From: a virus | Reading direction: 5' to 3' (one strand) | Virus record (IMG/VR): IMGVR_UViG_3300034407_000288 | Span: 1 to 21,391 of that record | DNA: 21,391 nucleotides | Part shown: piece after piece, positions 3,662-19,854 of the stretch | How positions within the stretch are numbered: position 1 is the stretch's first letter | How the letters are laid out: each line of letters opens with the position of its first letter | The notes under the pieces: generated by a model | The model's input: only the letters and a program-made list of their open reading frames with translations | The model's database searches: none | What the model was told of the DNA's origin: nothing | Translations under genes and position numbers: made by a program

Positions 3662-4202
3662 CTATTGTAAATTTTAAAAAGTTATTAGCATCTAATGCAT
3701 ATTTGTCTATAAATTTCTTTGGTAGTTTTTTAAACTCTTGTGCAAAAGCATCTGAAAAGAAGTATGTAGGTTTAACACCTTGTTTAAATAACTTTCTAGC
3801 TATTGCAAAAGTAATTGACTGTCTTTTAACAAATCTACCTGATGCATCTCTACTACCTTTTAGGTTTCTTCTTACAACCCATTTGTCTAATGATTTAGTA
3901 GGAGGCATTTTAGACTTATAGCTATATGTAGGTAGTCCATGCTTTCTAACACCTCTCTTGTTATCTTTACCATCTATCCCTGCATCTTGATAAAAACCAT
4001 ATTCATTCATCAAGAATTTTAATGAAAATGATTGCTGTTTAGAAACATCTAGATAAAACTTTAAAGACCTTTTAAGATTACCACTAGCACTCATGCTCTT
4101 TCCTTTATATCCTCTTGTAGACATATTAGACTTTGCTAATTCAATTACATCTTTAGCAAACTTGTTTAGTAGTTCTGTAGTCTCTTTAAATTTCATTAAC
4201 AA
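3648..4202 (-). CDS. HK97 gp10-like neck/tail-completion protein (184 aa)
   Basis: A small basic protein with many Lys and Arg residues. The centre (residues about 65-110) has the pattern YGFYQDAGIDG followed by a Pro/Tyr/Lys-rich stretch, KMPP and DKWVVRR, then a region with ITFAIARKLFKQGVKPTYFF. This order of a Y-x-D-x-G turn, a PP-x-x-x-L-x-x-W helix and an IARxIxxxGxKPTxFF helix is what I associate with HK97 gp10-like tail-completion proteins of Bacteroidetes phages. It overlaps its upstream neighbour by 7 nt and its downstream neighbour by 14 nt. Role inferred: head-tail joining or tail terminator. Confidence 0.6.
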   Translation of the reverse strand: MLMKFKETTELLNKFAKDVIELAKSNMSTRGYKGKSMSASGNLKRSLKFYLDVSKQQSFSLKFLMNEYGFYQDAGIDGKDNKRGVRKHGLPTYSYKSKMPPTKSLDKWVVRRNLKGSRDASGRFVKRQSITFAIARKLFKQGVKPTYFFSDAFAQEFKKLPKKFIDKYALDANNFLKFTIDGNN

Positions 4203-4666
4203 ACATTTATATCATTTATTATCTCTACTGTAAAAGATGTGGCCCATCCTGCTAGTACATTCTCAAATCTATCAAAAAATGGTTCACATGTAGCATCACC
4301 TACTAGTCTATAACCTAATTGATGCAGTTGGCCTATTCTTAGTCTACTAATCATTCTGTTAGATACAGCTAATTGTGTATTTAGTATGTCTATGGTATTG
4401 TTGTTTATAAATGGATCCTCATCATATGTTTTACTAGAATCTATTTGCTCCATTGTTAAAACTGTAAAATCAAACTGTAGTGTTTTCTCACTATTAGTAA
4501 CATTCTCTATTATGACATGTGCTAATGGAAACATTGTCATTTTACCTAAGTCAATATCTGTTATATCTCCAAAGGTTACTGTCTTTACATTGTCATTTGC
4601 TAGTAACTCATTTTTAATTGTGTCTGTTACTAAATAAAATCCTCTTACACTACTATCTGTTGCCAT
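4196..4666 (-). CDS. Tail protein, possible tail-terminator type (156 aa)
   Basis: A soluble 156-aa alpha/beta protein with no signal peptide. It has a central strand segment (FPLAHVIIENV, then LQFDFTVLTMEQID) followed by a helix with DILNTQLAVSNRMISRL and a C-terminal strand (NVLAGWATSFTVEIINDI). This order resembles small head-tail or tail-terminator proteins in Bacteroidetes phage tail clusters. Its ATG at 4666 lies 13 nt upstream of the end of the frameshifted chaperone product, so the two coding regions overlap. The next gene (gp10-like) begins 7 nt before its stop. Function is inferred from position and fold-like pattern. Confidence 0.55.
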   Translation of the reverse strand: MATDSSVRGFYLVTDTIKNELLANDNVKTVTFGDITDIDLGKMTMFPLAHVIIENVTNSEKTLQFDFTVLTMEQIDSSKTYDEDPFINNNTIDILNTQLAVSNRMISRLRIGQLHQLGYRLVGDATCEPFFDRFENVLAGWATSFTVEIINDINVC

Positions 4667-5419
4667 AACTTTGTTTTATTCTAATTTGCTCTAATCTTGT
4701 TTTCTCATTTACAAATTCTAAATACATTAAAACTTTGTGAACTCCCATTTCTGAGATATGTTCAAATTTTGTAATATCTCCTTGAGTTGCCTGGTAAAAG
4801 CTACTGTAGAAACCCCACTTTTGTTCAAATCCTCCTTCAGTTGTGTATCCTTCAGAACTCCCCTGTCCAAATAGTCCAGTATAACTTGACTCAACTCTTT
4901 CCCTAAATTCAACAAAAAAAAAACAGCTCCAAGTGCTACACCTAGAGGCATGTCTTTCATATGCTCATTTACTTTACCTTCATACTTCTTTATATTGTAC
5001 TTTCCTCTGACCATAATATCTATTGGCCTATACATTACTGACATTGCCTTGTCCATATCATCCCAGTCTTTTAGATAGTTGTCTAAATCAACAAACTCAC
5101 CAAAGCTAATCTCATCTAAGTTTGGTATAAAACCATATTGCACTTTATCTAATGTAAATGTCTCTCTGAATTTAGCTTTAGTTTCAAATAGATCTGATAA
5201 ACTATTAACTATGTCTTGTACATCAGTCCACCTCATACTAACTACATGTTTTAGCTCTACATTACAGAATATCTCTATCATCTTCTGAGCTACAAATGTA
5301 TCATCTGTATTTTCCTTTTGGATTTTTAAGAATTTTTGATATTGCCCAAGTGTTACTTCATTTATATCTGTGGGCACTTTTATTGTTATCTCCATACTAG
5401 TATAATAACTTTTTTGCAT
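4653..5419 (-). CDS. Tail assembly chaperone, long -1 frameshift product, about 255 aa
   Basis: Slipping back one base after codon 168 (second TTT) keeps the frame open for another 86 codons to TAG at 4653, past the zero-frame stop. The extension has a clear protein-like pattern: FEQKWGFYSSFYQATQGDI, then TKFEHISEMGVHKVLMYLEF and a charged tail ending KQSYGNR. The K-W-G-(W/F)-Y ... G-D-I-T-K-F ... V-L-x-Y-L-x-F pattern matches a small tail protein normally encoded just after this chaperone in related phages, as I remember it. The product would be the equivalent of lambda gpGT, which bridges tail tube and tape measure during tail assembly. The frameshift is inferred; no reading of protein data is possible here. 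Confidence 0.65.
4727..5419 (-). CDS. Tail assembly chaperone, short (zero-frame) product, 230 aa
   Basis: First gene of the leftward tail operon. The N-terminus MEITIKVPTDINEVTLGQYQ is typical of a chaperone-like protein in Bacteroidetes phage tail modules; a central acidic segment follows (residues 100-130). Residues 166-169 (V-F-F-L) are encoded by GTT TTT TTT TTG, a run of ten T that puts T_TTT_TTT in the correct register for -1 slippage. After the run this frame continues 61 codons to a TAA at 4727. Those codons are unusually G-ending for this genome (Leu as TTG x6, CTG x3, CTC x1 and only TTA x2 from residue 169 on), which suggests the overlapping frame constrains them. A second in-frame ATG at 5395 (giving MEITIK) may be the true start. 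Analogous to lambda gpG. Confidence 0.7.
   Translation of the reverse strand: MQKSYYTSMEITIKVPTDINEVTLGQYQKFLKIQKENTDDTFVAQKMIEIFCNVELKHVVSMRWTDVQDIVNSLSDLFETKAKFRETFTLDKVQYGFIPNLDEISFGEFVDLDNYLKDWDDMDKAMSVMYRPIDIMVRGKYNIKKYEGKVNEHMKDMPLGVALGAVFFLLNLGKELSQVILDYLDRGVLKDTQLKEDLNKSGVSTVAFTRQLKEILQNLNISQKWEFTKF
4914..4923 (-). promoter_or_regulatory. T10 slippery run for -1 ribosomal frameshifting
   Basis: The plus strand has ten A in a row, giving ten T in the mRNA-sense strand, read as G-TT TTT TTT TT-G in the zero frame. The heptamer T TTT TTT is a canonical X_XXY_YYZ slippery site, and both tRNAs re-pair fully after a one-base slip. It lies inside the tail chaperone gene at codons 166-169, the place where tail-chaperone frameshifts are expected. 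I see no obvious strong stem-loop just downstream, though the region is relatively G-rich. Confidence 0.6.
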
Positions 5420-5476: not shown

Positions 5477-5725
5477 ATGAAAAACACTATGAAAAACAAG
5501 ACAAAAACAAGATACAGAGTTTACTCCTTAGGACAAGGAATAAAAGAATCTAATGATTATTTTACATCTCTTGCAGATGCTAAAAAGTTTATGAAATCTC
5601 ATTATAACTTTATGATTGAAATGAGTGCAAGTCTATTTACTCTTTCTAAAGAGGAAAGTGATAATGATTTTGATGACATTGATACTACTGGAATTGACAC
5701 AAGAACAACAATAATTAATTTATAA
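5477..5725 (+). CDS. Small acidic-tailed protein of unknown function, rightward (82 aa)
   Basis: One of only two genes on the plus strand. From ATG 5477 it encodes 82 aa: a basic N-terminus (MKNTMKNKTKTRYRVYSLGQ), a short helix region with TSLADAKKFMKSHYNF, then an acidic Asp-rich segment (ESDNDFDDID). ATG codons at 5453 and 5489 are in frame, but the proposed promoter -7 box lies over the upstream one, so 5477 is preferred. The next gene begins 4 nt after the stop. I do not recognise the family. Its separate strand, promoter and terminator are what one expects of an accessory 'moron' gene, but no function can be assigned. Confidence 0.6.
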   Translation: MKNTMKNKTKTRYRVYSLGQGIKESNDYFTSLADAKKFMKSHYNFMIEMSASLFTLSKEESDNDFDDIDTTGIDTRTTIINL

Positions 5726-5729
5726 TATT

Positions 5730-5849
5730 ATGAAAGACTTAAAAGAATTAGAAAAATACTTTAACCTACCAATTTGGTTAATAACCTTATTACTTTGGAT
5801 TGGAGCTGTAGGATTAGTCATCCTAATGGCACTTGCTGATTCATTGTGA
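5730..5849 (+). CDS. Single-pass membrane microprotein, rightward (39 aa)
   Basis: ATG at 5730, 4 nt after the preceding stop, ends in TGA at 5847-5849. The protein has a charged, amphipathic start (MKDLKELEKYF) and then one hydrophobic segment of about 23 residues (residues 14-36, rich in Leu, Ile, Val and Trp), so it is probably inserted in the inner membrane. It is followed at once by a terminator, so it closes a two-gene rightward transcript. Small membrane proteins in such positions are often superinfection-exclusion or inhibitor proteins, but nothing here proves that. Confidence 0.55.
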   Translation: MKDLKELEKYFNLPIWLITLLLWIGAVGLVILMALADSL

Positions 5850-8366: not shown

Positions 8367-8634
8367 CCTTCTCTAATTTATCTTGTAATGCTGCTAATGC
8401 TCTCCATGCTACTTTAGCTAAATGTAAGCAACCATCATCATCCATTTCTTTTGCTTGTATTAAATGTCTTGTTAGTGCATCTAGATGATCTGTACTTTTA
8501 CTCTTATCCCAATGTAGAGGTTTACCTTTGTGATGTTGGTCATTTCCAATCTTACTCACTCTTGATACTTCCATAAGTGCATCAGGAAAATAATTAAGGA
8601 CACCTGTCCATACTGGATAATCTTTTCTATTCAT
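8350..8634 (-). CDS. dATP/dGTP diphosphohydrolase-like protein (DUF5664 type)
   Basis: A 94-aa protein carrying the pattern PVWTGVLNYFPDALMEVSRV, GNDQHHKGKPLHW, a K-S-x-D-H-x-D-A-L-x-R-H segment, DDDGCLHLAKVAWRALAAL. This matches, from memory, the phage family annotated as dATP/dGTP diphosphohydrolase N-terminal domain (formerly DUF5664), related to MazG-like all-alpha pyrophosphohydrolases. Members hydrolyse dATP and dGTP and alter nucleotide pools during infection. It follows the C5 methyltransferase directly (4-nt overlap) and overlaps the HNH gene by 17 nt. No purZ-like gene is present in the window, so a 2-aminoadenine pathway is not indicated. Confidence 0.7.
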   Translation of the reverse strand: MNRKDYPVWTGVLNYFPDALMEVSRVSKIGNDQHHKGKPLHWDKSKSTDHLDALTRHLIQAKEMDDDGCLHLAKVAWRALAALQDKLEKDGNSI

Positions 8635-9296
8635 AATTTACTACTTAATAATATTTCTTTACACAATTCTACTGGTAATATACTTCTTTGATAGTTACCT
8701 GATCTTCCTTGAATACCTTTACCTAATGCACCAGTTTCTTTCTTTGCTTTATAACCTCTAGGTTGTTTATCATGATGACAATTAGTATTTCCATTAAAAC
8801 ATTCTGCCCTTGATTTCCAACCATTTTTATTGAACATGGGATTATAAATATTATTGCTCCAAATGTCAGTAGGTTTAGCTACTTGTTCACCATACTGACA
8901 ATACCAAACAGTTACCCTTGGAAGTCCTTTCACTACATCTAAAACTCTTAACTTTCCTCTAGGATTTTCCATATACCAAAACTTAGGTTTTAAGGCATAA
9001 ATTATCTCTAAAGTTTTTTCTACATACTTAACACCTAGTACTGCTTTTTCTGATTTTGGTGTGTTATTTTTATTCCAATGTCTAAAAATTGATGCAACAC
9101 TAAAAGATGTACATGGAGGACTTGCCCATATCAGATCAGGTTTAAATGGTACTTTCTTAATATCAAAGTTTAAAATATCTACAGCATAGTCTATTCCATC
9201 AAACTCTTTATAGTCAGATGTAAATGTTTCAAAACCTAGCTTTTTAGCTTCACCAGTAAATGTACAACTACCTGCAAATAATTCTAATACTTTCAT
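8631..9296 (-). CDS. C5 cytosine DNA methyltransferase (phage type)
   Basis: A 221-aa SAM-dependent enzyme. Motif I is VLELFAGSCTF (residues 3-13), motif IV is WASPPCTSFSVAS with nucleophile Cys62, motif VI is MENPRG with Glu110, and a late segment QRSILPVELCKEIL fits motif X. A QYG...KPTDIWSN segment (134-148) takes the place of motif VIII. It lacks the large variable target-recognition domain of bacterial C5 methyltransferases (usually 300-400 aa), so its target cannot be guessed. Its ATG overlaps the stop of the 50-aa membrane protein and its stop overlaps the diphosphohydrolase start. Likely role: marking phage DNA against host restriction. In a genome without CpG its target must lack CpG, unless it modifies host DNA or is a relic. 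Confidence 0.85.
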   Translation of the reverse strand: MKVLELFAGSCTFTGEAKKLGFETFTSDYKEFDGIDYAVDILNFDIKKVPFKPDLIWASPPCTSFSVASIFRHWNKNNTPKSEKAVLGVKYVEKTLEIIYALKPKFWYMENPRGKLRVLDVVKGLPRVTVWYCQYGEQVAKPTDIWSNNIYNPMFNKNGWKSRAECFNGNTNCHHDKQPRGYKAKKETGALGKGIQGRSGNYQRSILPVELCKEILLSSKL

Positions 9297-16902: not shown

Positions 16903-19854
16903 TTATTTATTTTTACAATTGTTACACTTATTATTTAATTCCTTAACAGCTTCAATTAAGAGTCCAATTACACCATTGTAATCTACTGCTAAGAACTTGT
17001 CATTTTTATTTATAGATTCAACTTCTTTTACTATCTCAGGTAATACTTTTTGCAATTCTTGTGCTATAACACCACCTGATCTTGCATCTCTATCAATCCA
17101 GTCAAATGTTACACCTCTAATCTCATTTAGTTTTTCTAATGGACTATCAATTACTTTAACATTTTCTTTTAATCTTTCATCAGATGATATTGTTGTAGAG
17201 TATGCTACTACATCACCCTCTACTTGAAGAGTACCTGTATCTTGTAGTCTCATATCCTCACTACCATCTATAAAGAAGTTTATTTGGTCTGATTGAACAT
17301 TTATGTAATCATTAGTATCTAAACCAATTTGTGATATTAAACCTCTTGAATCTAAAGATGCACCATAAGTTACAGTCTCTCCCATTCCACTATGAGCTGT
17401 ACAATAAGTGTATAGTGTTACAGTATCTTGTTCTGTTGTAATTTGTGTGTATGCACCTGATGTTCCTGGTGTACCAACTGCTGTTACATTAGTTGTATAT
17501 TCAGAACCACCTCCATGTGTACCATCAGAGGTTGTAGAAAATCTTAGTGGATGTCCTGAGTTTGTAGAATCACTTTGATTAAATCTATATGTTTGACCTT
17601 TTGATAATGTGATTGATTGATAACCTCCATCATAGTAGTATACATTACCACTTCCTGGATTAACAACTGTTACTAATACTTCAGAATATATAACATCTGT
17701 TGTGTCATTTATTTTTAAATCCTCTAAGTTTGTTAGTGCAACTGTATCATCTGCTATTTTTGCTCCTGTTACTGCATCATTTGCAATAGTAAGTGCTACT
17801 GATCCTGTTACATCTCCAGTATGTGTTTGGTTATACAAATTAGAAGAACCTTCTGTAAGGTCATCTGATGTTTTAGTACCTAGTGCAGTATCAAACCTTG
17901 CAGTAGTATAATACAAGTTAGTTCCTTCACTTAAATCAGTTGTAGATTTAGCAGCAAAAGCTGTATCAAATCTGCCACTAGTGTAATATAAATTAGTTGT
18001 CCCCTCACTAACATCATCTGTATCTTTTGTTGCTAGTCTAGTGTCAAAGTCAGTATTTGCTCTTGTAGAGGTATAATACAAGTTTGTTCCCTCTGATAAA
18101 TCTGATGTAGACTTACTAGATAAATCTAAGTTAGAACCTACTTGTAATGCTATTCTTGCATCAGCTCTAGCATTTGTAAAATATTCATTTGTTGAACCTT
18201 CTGCTACTGCATCTGAATCAAAAGTTATATTTGCACTTCCATCAAAACTAGTTCCATTTATAGTTCTAGGTGTAGAAAGTGTGTCTGCTGAAGTAGCACT
18301 AGTTGCTGTTGTGGCACTAGCTGCTGCTATCCCTAGTCCATCTACATATGTTTTAGTAATGTGTGCTTGTACTTCTGCTGAGCTAGGCCCTGTATAAGTA
18401 AATACACCAGTTGTATTATCATAACTAAAACTACCATCTCCTCCTGCATCTGTTGCACTTAAATCTGTTAGTGATAAACCACTTGTTGTAGATGCAATTT
18501 GTAAAGTGTTAGCTACATCATTGTATGTTAAACTAATTCCTGTCCCTGCTGTAAGTAAATTATTAACAGCATCATCACTTCTCTCTTGTGTAAAATATTG
18601 ATTAGTTGATCCTTCAGGTAAATCATCTGTATTTACTTGACCTGTTCCTGTTCCAAAATCTATTAATGTGTCATCTATAGAATCTGCTGCTAAACTTACA
18701 GCTCCATTAGATACACTAAAATGGTCTGATGAGAAACTAGCAACTCCTTTTGCACTTGTTGATGCATCTGTACCTGCTATAGTGAAATTTGGATATGTTC
18801 CTGATGCACTTAGTCCAGTACCACTTGATGCAGTAATTGCAACTGTTTGGTCAGGTGATGTGTTTGTAACTGTAAATGTTGGATATGTACCTGTAACATT
18901 TATTCCTGTTCCTGTATTTAAAGCTACAGTCTGATCAGGAGAAGTATTTGTAATTGTTAAAGAATTATTTGTGTCATCATATGAGCTGCTTATTCCAGTT
19001 CCTGCTACAACTAAGCTAGATACTCTATCATCAACTCTTTCATCAGTAAAATATTTATTACTTGTTCCCTCTGACACATCATCTGTTGTTTTTCCTGCTA
19101 AAGCACTATCAAATCTTGAAGTAGTGTAGTAAAGATTTGTGCCTTCAGTTAAGTCTGAAGTTGTTTTGCTTGATAAATCTAGATTTGCTCCAGTATTTAA
19201 ATCAATTCTAGCATCTACTCTTGCATTAGTTAGATACAAGTTTGTTGATCCTTCACTTACAGAATCAGTATCAAATGAAATGTTAGCTGTACCATCAAAT
19301 GATGTACCATTTATGGTTCTTGCATTTTCTAAAGCTGTTGCAGTAGATGCATTTCCAGTTAATTCACCAGTAAATCCTGTAGATGTTACAGAAGTTAATC
19401 CTGATATTGTAGATGGTAATCCTATTGTTAAAGAGTTACCACTAGAAACTGTTTCTATTTCATTTGCTGTACCTGCAATAGTAAATGTTTCAGTATTTAA
19501 ATTTATACTTTGTGTTCCTCCTGTATCTCCTGCAAAATCTAAATCAGAAATTGATACCTGAGAATCTACATATGCTTTTATTGATTGTTGAGTTGCTAGT
19601 GATGTTGCACTATCTGAACTCATATTGTCCTCATCTTTAATATCTGCAATTGTTATTGTGCCATCAGATAAAGAACCAAATGTAATTGTACCTATTGCTG
19701 TTAGATCCCCTGCATTGTTTAGAGATATACCTGATTCTGTTCCAAGACCATCAGAAATGACCTTTAAACTAGCTGTTAGACCATCATTATCTCCTACTTT
19801 TATTAAAGAATCATAACTAGATGCAATAGATATACCTGTTAAACTACTAGCCAT
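16903..19854 (-). CDS. Tail fibre with YYT repeats, cupredoxin-like domain and S74 chaperone (983 aa)
   Basis: A long Ser/Thr/Gly-rich fibre. Residues 199-680 hold nine copies of a short repeat (EG-(S)-TNLYYT-xx-R-x-D), with a longer unit repeated twice (around 175-270 and 527-625). Residues about 726-830 form a cupredoxin-like module: GHPLRFSTTSDGTH, then LYTYCTAHSGMG with His768, Cys818, His821, Met824 in type-1 copper order. The C-terminus (about 890-983) is the peptidase S74 intramolecular chaperone: SSDERLKENV, GGVIAQELQKVLPEIV, AVDYNGVIGLLIEAVKEL. This chaperone trimerises the fibre and cuts itself off at the Ser of SDERLK. The fibre would bind the host surface. Confidence 0.9.
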   Translation of the reverse strand: MASSLTGISIASSYDSLIKVGDNDGLTASLKVISDGLGTESGISLNNAGDLTAIGTITFGSLSDGTITIADIKDEDNMSSDSATSLATQQSIKAYVDSQVSISDLDFAGDTGGTQSINLNTETFTIAGTANEIETVSSGNSLTIGLPSTISGLTSVTSTGFTGELTGNASTATALENARTINGTSFDGTANISFDTDSVSEGSTNLYLTNARVDARIDLNTGANLDLSSKTTSDLTEGTNLYYTTSRFDSALAGKTTDDVSEGTSNKYFTDERVDDRVSSLVVAGTGISSSYDDTNNSLTITNTSPDQTVALNTGTGINVTGTYPTFTVTNTSPDQTVAITASSGTGLSASGTYPNFTIAGTDASTSAKGVASFSSDHFSVSNGAVSLAADSIDDTLIDFGTGTGQVNTDDLPEGSTNQYFTQERSDDAVNNLLTAGTGISLTYNDVANTLQIASTTSGLSLTDLSATDAGGDGSFSYDNTTGVFTYTGPSSAEVQAHITKTYVDGLGIAAASATTATSATSADTLSTPRTINGTSFDGSANITFDSDAVAEGSTNEYFTNARADARIALQVGSNLDLSSKSTSDLSEGTNLYYTSTRANTDFDTRLATKDTDDVSEGTTNLYYTSGRFDTAFAAKSTTDLSEGTNLYYTTARFDTALGTKTSDDLTEGSSNLYNQTHTGDVTGSVALTIANDAVTGAKIADDTVALTNLEDLKINDTTDVIYSEVLVTVVNPGSGNVYYYDGGYQSITLSKGQTYRFNQSDSTNSGHPLRFSTTSDGTHGGGSEYTTNVTAVGTPGTSGAYTQITTEQDTVTLYTYCTAHSGMGETVTYGASLDSRGLISQIGLDTNDYINVQSDQINFFIDGSEDMRLQDTGTLQVEGDVVAYSTTISSDERLKENVKVIDSPLEKLNEIRGVTFDWIDRDARSGGVIAQELQKVLPEIVKEVESINKNDKFLAVDYNGVIGLLIEAVKELNNKCNNCKNK
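17365..17679 (-). other. Cupredoxin-like domain within the tail fibre
   Basis: The piece encodes fibre residues about 726-830. It shows a beta-rich stretch with QTYRFNQSD, GHPLRFSTTSDGTH and, 47 residues after GHPL, YTYCTAHSGMG. The His...Cys-x2-His-x2-Met arrangement matches the ligand set of a type-1 copper site. The Cys-to-Met spacing is shorter than plastocyanin (C-x2-H-x4-M), so copper binding is uncertain. Similar modules are known to me from fibre proteins of marine phages. Confidence 0.6.
17815..19262 (-). repeat. Short repeats in the tail fibre gene (nine YYT units)
   Basis: Nine copies of a unit of about 16-20 residues with consensus D-(D/L)-(S/T)-E-G-(S/T)-T-N-L-Y-Y-T-x-x-R-x-D; some are spaced by about 20 residues and others by longer inserts. 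The last copy is degenerate (SSNLYNQTHTGDV). The repeats differ at the DNA level by synonymous changes, so they are old or under homologous exchange rather than recent slippage. Confidence 0.8.

Follow-up and report, generated by a model that had tools for sequence, protein, structure and literature searches.

A Conserved Poly-T Run Joins Two Frames of a Candidate Tail-Assembly Chaperone Gene in Mostly Uncultured Phages of Bacteroidota

INTRODUCTION

Recoding by a -1 shift in tail chaperone genes is textbook knowledge (PMC5009743), and the lambda-type G/GT tail assembly chaperones go back to Xu, Hendrix and Duda (2004, as cited in PMC5009743 and PMC3711429). In lambda-like phages the ribosome makes the G/GT shift at a low level, and certain tailed phages seem to shift without a stimulator (PMC5009743). 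RNA polymerases can also slip: runs of eight or more A's or T's are typical of such sites (PMC3711429), and the Escherichia coli enzyme slips preferentially on poly-T, with a minimum of 7 (PMC6260861).

Here, we describe a phage gene in which a long T run lies between two overlapping frames. In the openly accessible literature, we found no report of this poly-T phage family, of such a poly-T site in tail genes, or of G/GT expression by polymerase slippage. Both the slippage trick and the likely role, tail assembly, have precedents in other phages; the family and its strict T run are new.

RESULTS AND DISCUSSION

Layout of the poly-T gene

The window is a 21,391-base IMG/VR virus contig, and all positions below are counted along it unless another sequence is named. 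The gene lies on the minus strand, where the 0-frame open reading frame (ORF) spans 5419 to 4727, and the alignment of relatives places the conserved start at ATG 5395 (MEITIKVP). The G-like 0-frame product (4727 to 5395, with its stop at 4729 to 4727) comprises a conserved N part and a 0-frame tail, and it matched phrog_32199 in a profile search (E=2.4e-14). The N part (4925 to 5395, 157 amino acids) is common to the short and the fused product and has a predicted fold with pLDDT values mostly of 80 to 90.

Behind the N part lies a run of 10 T's (4914 to 4923, minus strand), and the site reads GTT TTT TTT TTG TTG AAT TTA, then GGG, in the 0-frame. The original prediction, made from this sequence, held that the run sets a T_TTT_TTT heptamer in the 0-frame register, which is correct (4922 to 4916). 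Its codon numbers, 166 to 168, were counted from ATG 5419; in the real gene, starting at ATG 5395, these are codons 158 to 160. Both frames do stay open past the run, the 0-frame to 4727 and the -1 frame to 4653. From 4916, the -1 frame translates as FVEFRERVESSYTGLFGQGSSEGYTTEGGFEQKWGFYSSFYQATQGDITKFEHISEMGVHKVLMYLEFVNEKTRLEQIRIKQSYGNR and stops at 4655 to 4653. This T-like extension (4653 to 4916 including the stop codon, minus strand; 87 amino acids) contains both peptides singled out in advance. The region open in both frames, with the 0-frame tail lying over the extension, covers 4727 to 4913 of the same strand and includes a conserved 3' flank, AATTTAGGGAAAGAG (4895 to 4909), read as NLGKE in the 0-frame and as part of EFRER in the -1 frame.

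The next gene (4196 to 4666, minus strand; phrog_30964) begins at ATG 4666, a start that overlaps the stop of the extension. On the other side, two small plus-strand ORFs (5481 to 5845) lie between the large terminase gene and the poly-T gene, and because they separate the two, the poly-T gene opens a new minus-strand operon. Elsewhere on the minus strand, the window encodes a DNA methyltransferase (8631 to 9296; phrog_757, E 9e-27) and a 983-amino-acid repetitive tail-fibre-like protein (16903 to 19854), with matches to tail fibre and baseplate families at its C-terminal end. The window also holds further in-frame TTTT words besides the poly-T site.

Conservation of the run and the extension

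We pooled searches with the N-part alignment, the extension alignment, the P12024S extension, and bacterial genomes, which together gave 249 related loci whose junction could be read. At least nine T's precede the extension in all 249, one further locus (L003) being counted separately. Run lengths range from 9 to 12, with T9 commonest, T10 next, and T11 and T12 each seen once. A second search of the viral collection used the 3' flank as its sole query, making selection independent of both the run and the proteins. Among its distinct matches, all 67 family members carry T9 or T10, and six unrelated matches carry only one to five T's. No T7 or T8 run occurs at any of these 249 and 67 sites, and elsewhere in the ORFs of these loci runs of at least nine T's are found at only 4 places in 616 kb.

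When the extension alone served as query, it retrieved 25 loci, all with a -1 frame extension behind T10 except L003. This locus has T11 and a single continuous frame, so that G and T are fused; the junction lies just upstream of its position 473. L003 is otherwise near-identical at the site to L004 and L005, and its T11 is either a natural variant or an error. The expectation that the extension would have homologues and that related phages would keep the run was thus borne out, with identities of the extension of ∼59 to 73% in the nearest relatives and a recognisable counterpart in the cultured phage P12024S. On the strength of this conservation, we regard -1 recoding at this site as real with near certainty.

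The cultured members are the Nonlabens phages P12024S and P12024L, and the bacterial genome search added prophage-like copies in Flagellimonas onchidii and Galbibacter pacificus. Based on these phages and prophages, the hosts are mainly Bacteroidota, and the family is a large, almost uncultured phage group of marine and freshwater Bacteroidota. One member (L254) sits in a metagenome bin labelled Epsilonproteobacteria, which may reflect a different host or a binning error.

Slippage by RNA polymerase or by the ribosome

The fused protein is the same whether the polymerase or the ribosome slips. The original prediction was of a programmed -1 ribosomal frameshift; its -1 recoding held, but the pattern of the runs leans toward the polymerase. 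Every run examined contains an in-frame T_TTT_TTT, and the T's to spare upstream and downstream of this heptamer vary, as (1,1), (1,2), (2,0), (0,2), (2,1), and so on, with a sum that is always at least 2. Depending on the lineage, the run begins at codon position 1, 2, or 3, so that all three phases are represented. The codon that follows encodes Tyr, Trp, Ser, Leu, or Phe, and these codons have nothing but their first T in common. We found no TTC at the site, though TTC makes up 25% of the Phe codons in the N part, and none of the lineages has a different heptamer type. Comparison with control windows gave no signal of RNA structure upstream or downstream. Taken together, the preference for length over register (at least nine T's in any phase, and neither TTC, another heptamer, nor structure) reads as selection on run length, the mark of polymerase slippage, and it points to RNA polymerase at least as much as to the ribosome.

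The principal alternative is a ribosomal -1 frameshift at U_UUU_UUU, in which the P- and A-site tRNA-Phe slip back by one base and run length follows incidentally from amino acid and codon constraints in the two frames. This reading deserves tentative credence, somewhat under an even chance. The constant in-frame heptamer speaks for it, as does the ribosomal nature of the lambda-like shift. A downstream structure is a common stimulator of ribosomal -1 shifting, though not a universal one. Its absence here is compatible with a ribosomal slip, because certain tailed phages seem to be stimulator-free (PMC5009743). Against the ribosome stands the lack of T7 and T8 runs, in which the heptamer could survive. 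The constancy of the sequence also counts against it, since T_TTT_TTC never appears, nor does a different heptamer, even though both UUC and UUU rank among the good shifters in E. coli (PMC4066793). Finally, heptamers without stimulators are weak in that bacterium, reaching only about 2 to 10 times a background near 0.05% (PMC4066793). The rare run phases able to separate the two mechanisms occur at 8 loci. Because these tie-breaking sites come from few lineages, we consider polymerase slippage only slightly better than an even bet as the main route and keep the ribosomal route close in view.

A role in tail assembly

The second part of the original prediction assigned the gene to the G/GT tail chaperones. 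It gains from the position of the gene and from a weak fold match, and it loses from profile and solved-structure searches that matched nothing of the kind and from a tape measure gene that does not adjoin. In the Galbibacter prophage (L251), where gene names are our own reading of the sequences, the large terminase gene is followed by the poly-T gene and then by three others, of which one is HK97 gp10-like; next come a 686-amino-acid protein, a 646-amino-acid tape-measure-like protein, and protease and capsid-like genes. The poly-T gene thus heads a module containing the tape measure, five genes upstream of it. In P12024S, the gene lies about 6 kb upstream of gp49, a protein similar to those of the tape measure family phrog_58 (E 2e-4).

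For structure prediction, the N part with its 0-frame tail and the extension were folded separately. A fold search among viral models matched P12024S gp38 and, weakly, annotated tail assembly chaperones (A0A8S5V8Z8: E 0.022, probability 1.00), with TM scores of 0.41 to 0.46 for the chaperone match and a chaperone name that stems from automatic annotation. Profile searches (Pfam, PHROGs) gave no chaperone match, and PDB sequence and fold searches gave no match to a solved structure. The same profile and PDB searches with the extension returned nothing usable. One of 39 extensions matched the family of Lactococcus p2 ORF12, a tape measure chaperone, at a nonsignificant E=0.03.

Based on the tail-module position, the weak chaperone fold match, and the pairing of a short with a long product, a G/GT-like chaperone is our best guess, and we consider such a role likely. 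The competing idea, that the recoded gene is real but serves for example as a head-tail connector or packaging accessory, draws on the order of terminase, poly-T gene, and neck-like gene in P12024S and L251 and on the missing chaperone profile match. It seems unlikely to us, since tail modules of the G/GT kind typically open with such a pair, a short product and a longer one fused by a -1 shift (PMC5009743), and the fold similarity, weak as it is, is to annotated chaperones.

We also considered gp10 of Flavobacterium phage 6H as a possible remote relative and rejected it, with a fold TM of 0.31 and no productive -1 site found. That gene ends in TGT TTT TTC TAT, where a -1 slip at T_TTT_TTC would meet a stop at once. 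An unannotated -1-frame ORF lies behind it (about 10340 to 10045 of the 6H sequence, minus strand).

One start for two products

Several features tie the extension to the gene upstream. Its conservation begins directly at the T run, and in 113 of 209 relatives its stop and the following ATG form a 4-nt overlap, so that the extension represents the true 3' end of the gene. A separate start codon for the extension, which would have told against the original prediction, was rejected: no ATG occurs within the first 25 codons at any of the 219 distinct loci (0/219), and for this reason the extension can be produced only as a fusion. GTG or TTG is found within the same 25 codons at only 72 of the 219. 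A reading as two genes, with the extension as a small one that starts independently, is consequently very improbable, even though the annotation gives P12024S gp39 an internal start. We infer that gp38 and gp39 probably form one fusion, in which gp39 supplies the C-terminal part and is not a gene in itself (NC_018271, 23136 to 23830 for gp38 plus gp39; positions 4001 to 4695 of the corresponding survey locus, L027).

Equally improbable is phase variation, in which DNA replication slippage would toggle the fusion between virus particles. The run is mutable in principle, and the T11 of L003 would be the fused state, but this is one fused locus among about 250, and a permanent G-T fusion is noninfectious in phage TP901-1 (PMC4493119), so switching would be costly. 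A sequencing or assembly error that hides a single T11 frame can be dismissed, despite L003 and the error-proneness of homopolymers, because the offset is conserved across lineages, being identical in every other locus, each assembled independently, as well as in two cultured phages and the prophages of isolate genomes, and because the 0-frame after the run avoids stops.

The long 0-frame past the run

The 0-frame stays open for 50 to 89 codons beyond the run in 215 of 219 loci. N-part codon usage predicts a median opening of seven codons, and in the third frame the observed median is three. With the codon usage of the extension itself, the excess is weaker, with 42 to 54% of loci at p<0.05. 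In the exceptions (L315, L182, L335, and L336), the 0-frame stop follows the run after 6 codons (L315), 18 codons (L182), or 24 codons (P12024).

The first ∼14 codons after the run are conserved in both frames, and in the 0-frame they are predicted to extend a helix of the N part. Farther out, stops are strongly avoided and residue conservation is only slightly above the control; this part of the tail is predicted to be disordered. Given the slight conservation and the predicted disorder, we claim no function for the far 0-frame tail.

Proposed mechanism and implications

We propose that a single start yields two proteins. Normal decoding would produce the short G-like protein; less often, entry into the -1 frame at the poly-T run would give a G-T fusion. 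Most likely, RNA polymerase slips on the 9 to 12 T's and adds one U in a fraction of the mRNAs, on which ribosomes would then enter the extension in frame; a ribosomal -1 slip on the in-frame U_UUU_UUU would give an identical protein and may contribute. Both products most likely work together as tail assembly chaperones. By analogy with lambda, the G part would bind the tape measure protein, leaving the T-like domain to recruit the major tail protein.

Recoding combined with a chaperone role, whichever machine slips, is a fairly likely reading. The full proposal, that in these Bacteroidota phages RNA polymerase slippage on at least nine T's, in place of a ribosomal shift, fixes how much of each chaperone form is made, and that the same DNA also encodes a second, 0-frame C-terminal tail, has in our judgment just short of an even chance.

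The recoding families gain a large, mostly uncultured phage group. The unannotated half of a conserved gene proves to be missed or split by gene finders. The earlier suspicion that a gene finder would miss the extension is borne out in part: the P12024S annotation lists the C-terminal part of the extension as a hypothetical protein of its own, gp39. If the slip is transcriptional, phages would attain the same G:GT solution using a different machine.

Comparison with known systems

Like lambda G/GT, the poly-T gene has one start and two products, with a -1 shift into a C-terminal T domain, and it belongs to a tail module and has no clear downstream stimulator. It differs in its site, a poly-T run of at least nine in place of mixed heptamers such as GGGAAAG, in a 0-frame that continues for 50 to 89 codons past the site in most members, and in its position, following terL and not adjoining the tape measure gene; sequence similarity to lambda is undetectable. 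At the sequence level, two hallmarks of G/GT are present, namely overlapping frames joined by -1 with no second start, and a slippery site conserved in relatives. Membership in G/GT is nevertheless not established, because the gene is not beside the tape measure gene and has no recognisable chaperone sequence relative.

The gpG/gpGT system of phage TP901-1 likewise makes its fusion by a -1 shift, and the noninfectious outcome of its engineered permanent fusion fits the rarity of T11 in our survey (PMC4493119). Unlike the poly-T gene, it uses GGGAAAG, and its chaperone genes adjoin the tape measure gene (PMC4493119). Programmed transcriptional realignment in IS elements and Shigella type III genes (PMC3711429, PMC5009743) resembles our case in having an A/T run of at least 8 to 9 and two products. 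The poly-T gene stands apart from these in lying in a phage structural module, in also containing an in-frame heptamer, and in being known from sequence alone. Closest are gp38/gp39 of the Nonlabens phages P12024S and P12024L (Inhavirus), which have a homologous N part (26% identity), the extension, a T9 run, and the same offset; they differ from the window in that the 0-frame ends 24 codons after the run and in their annotation as two hypothetical proteins.
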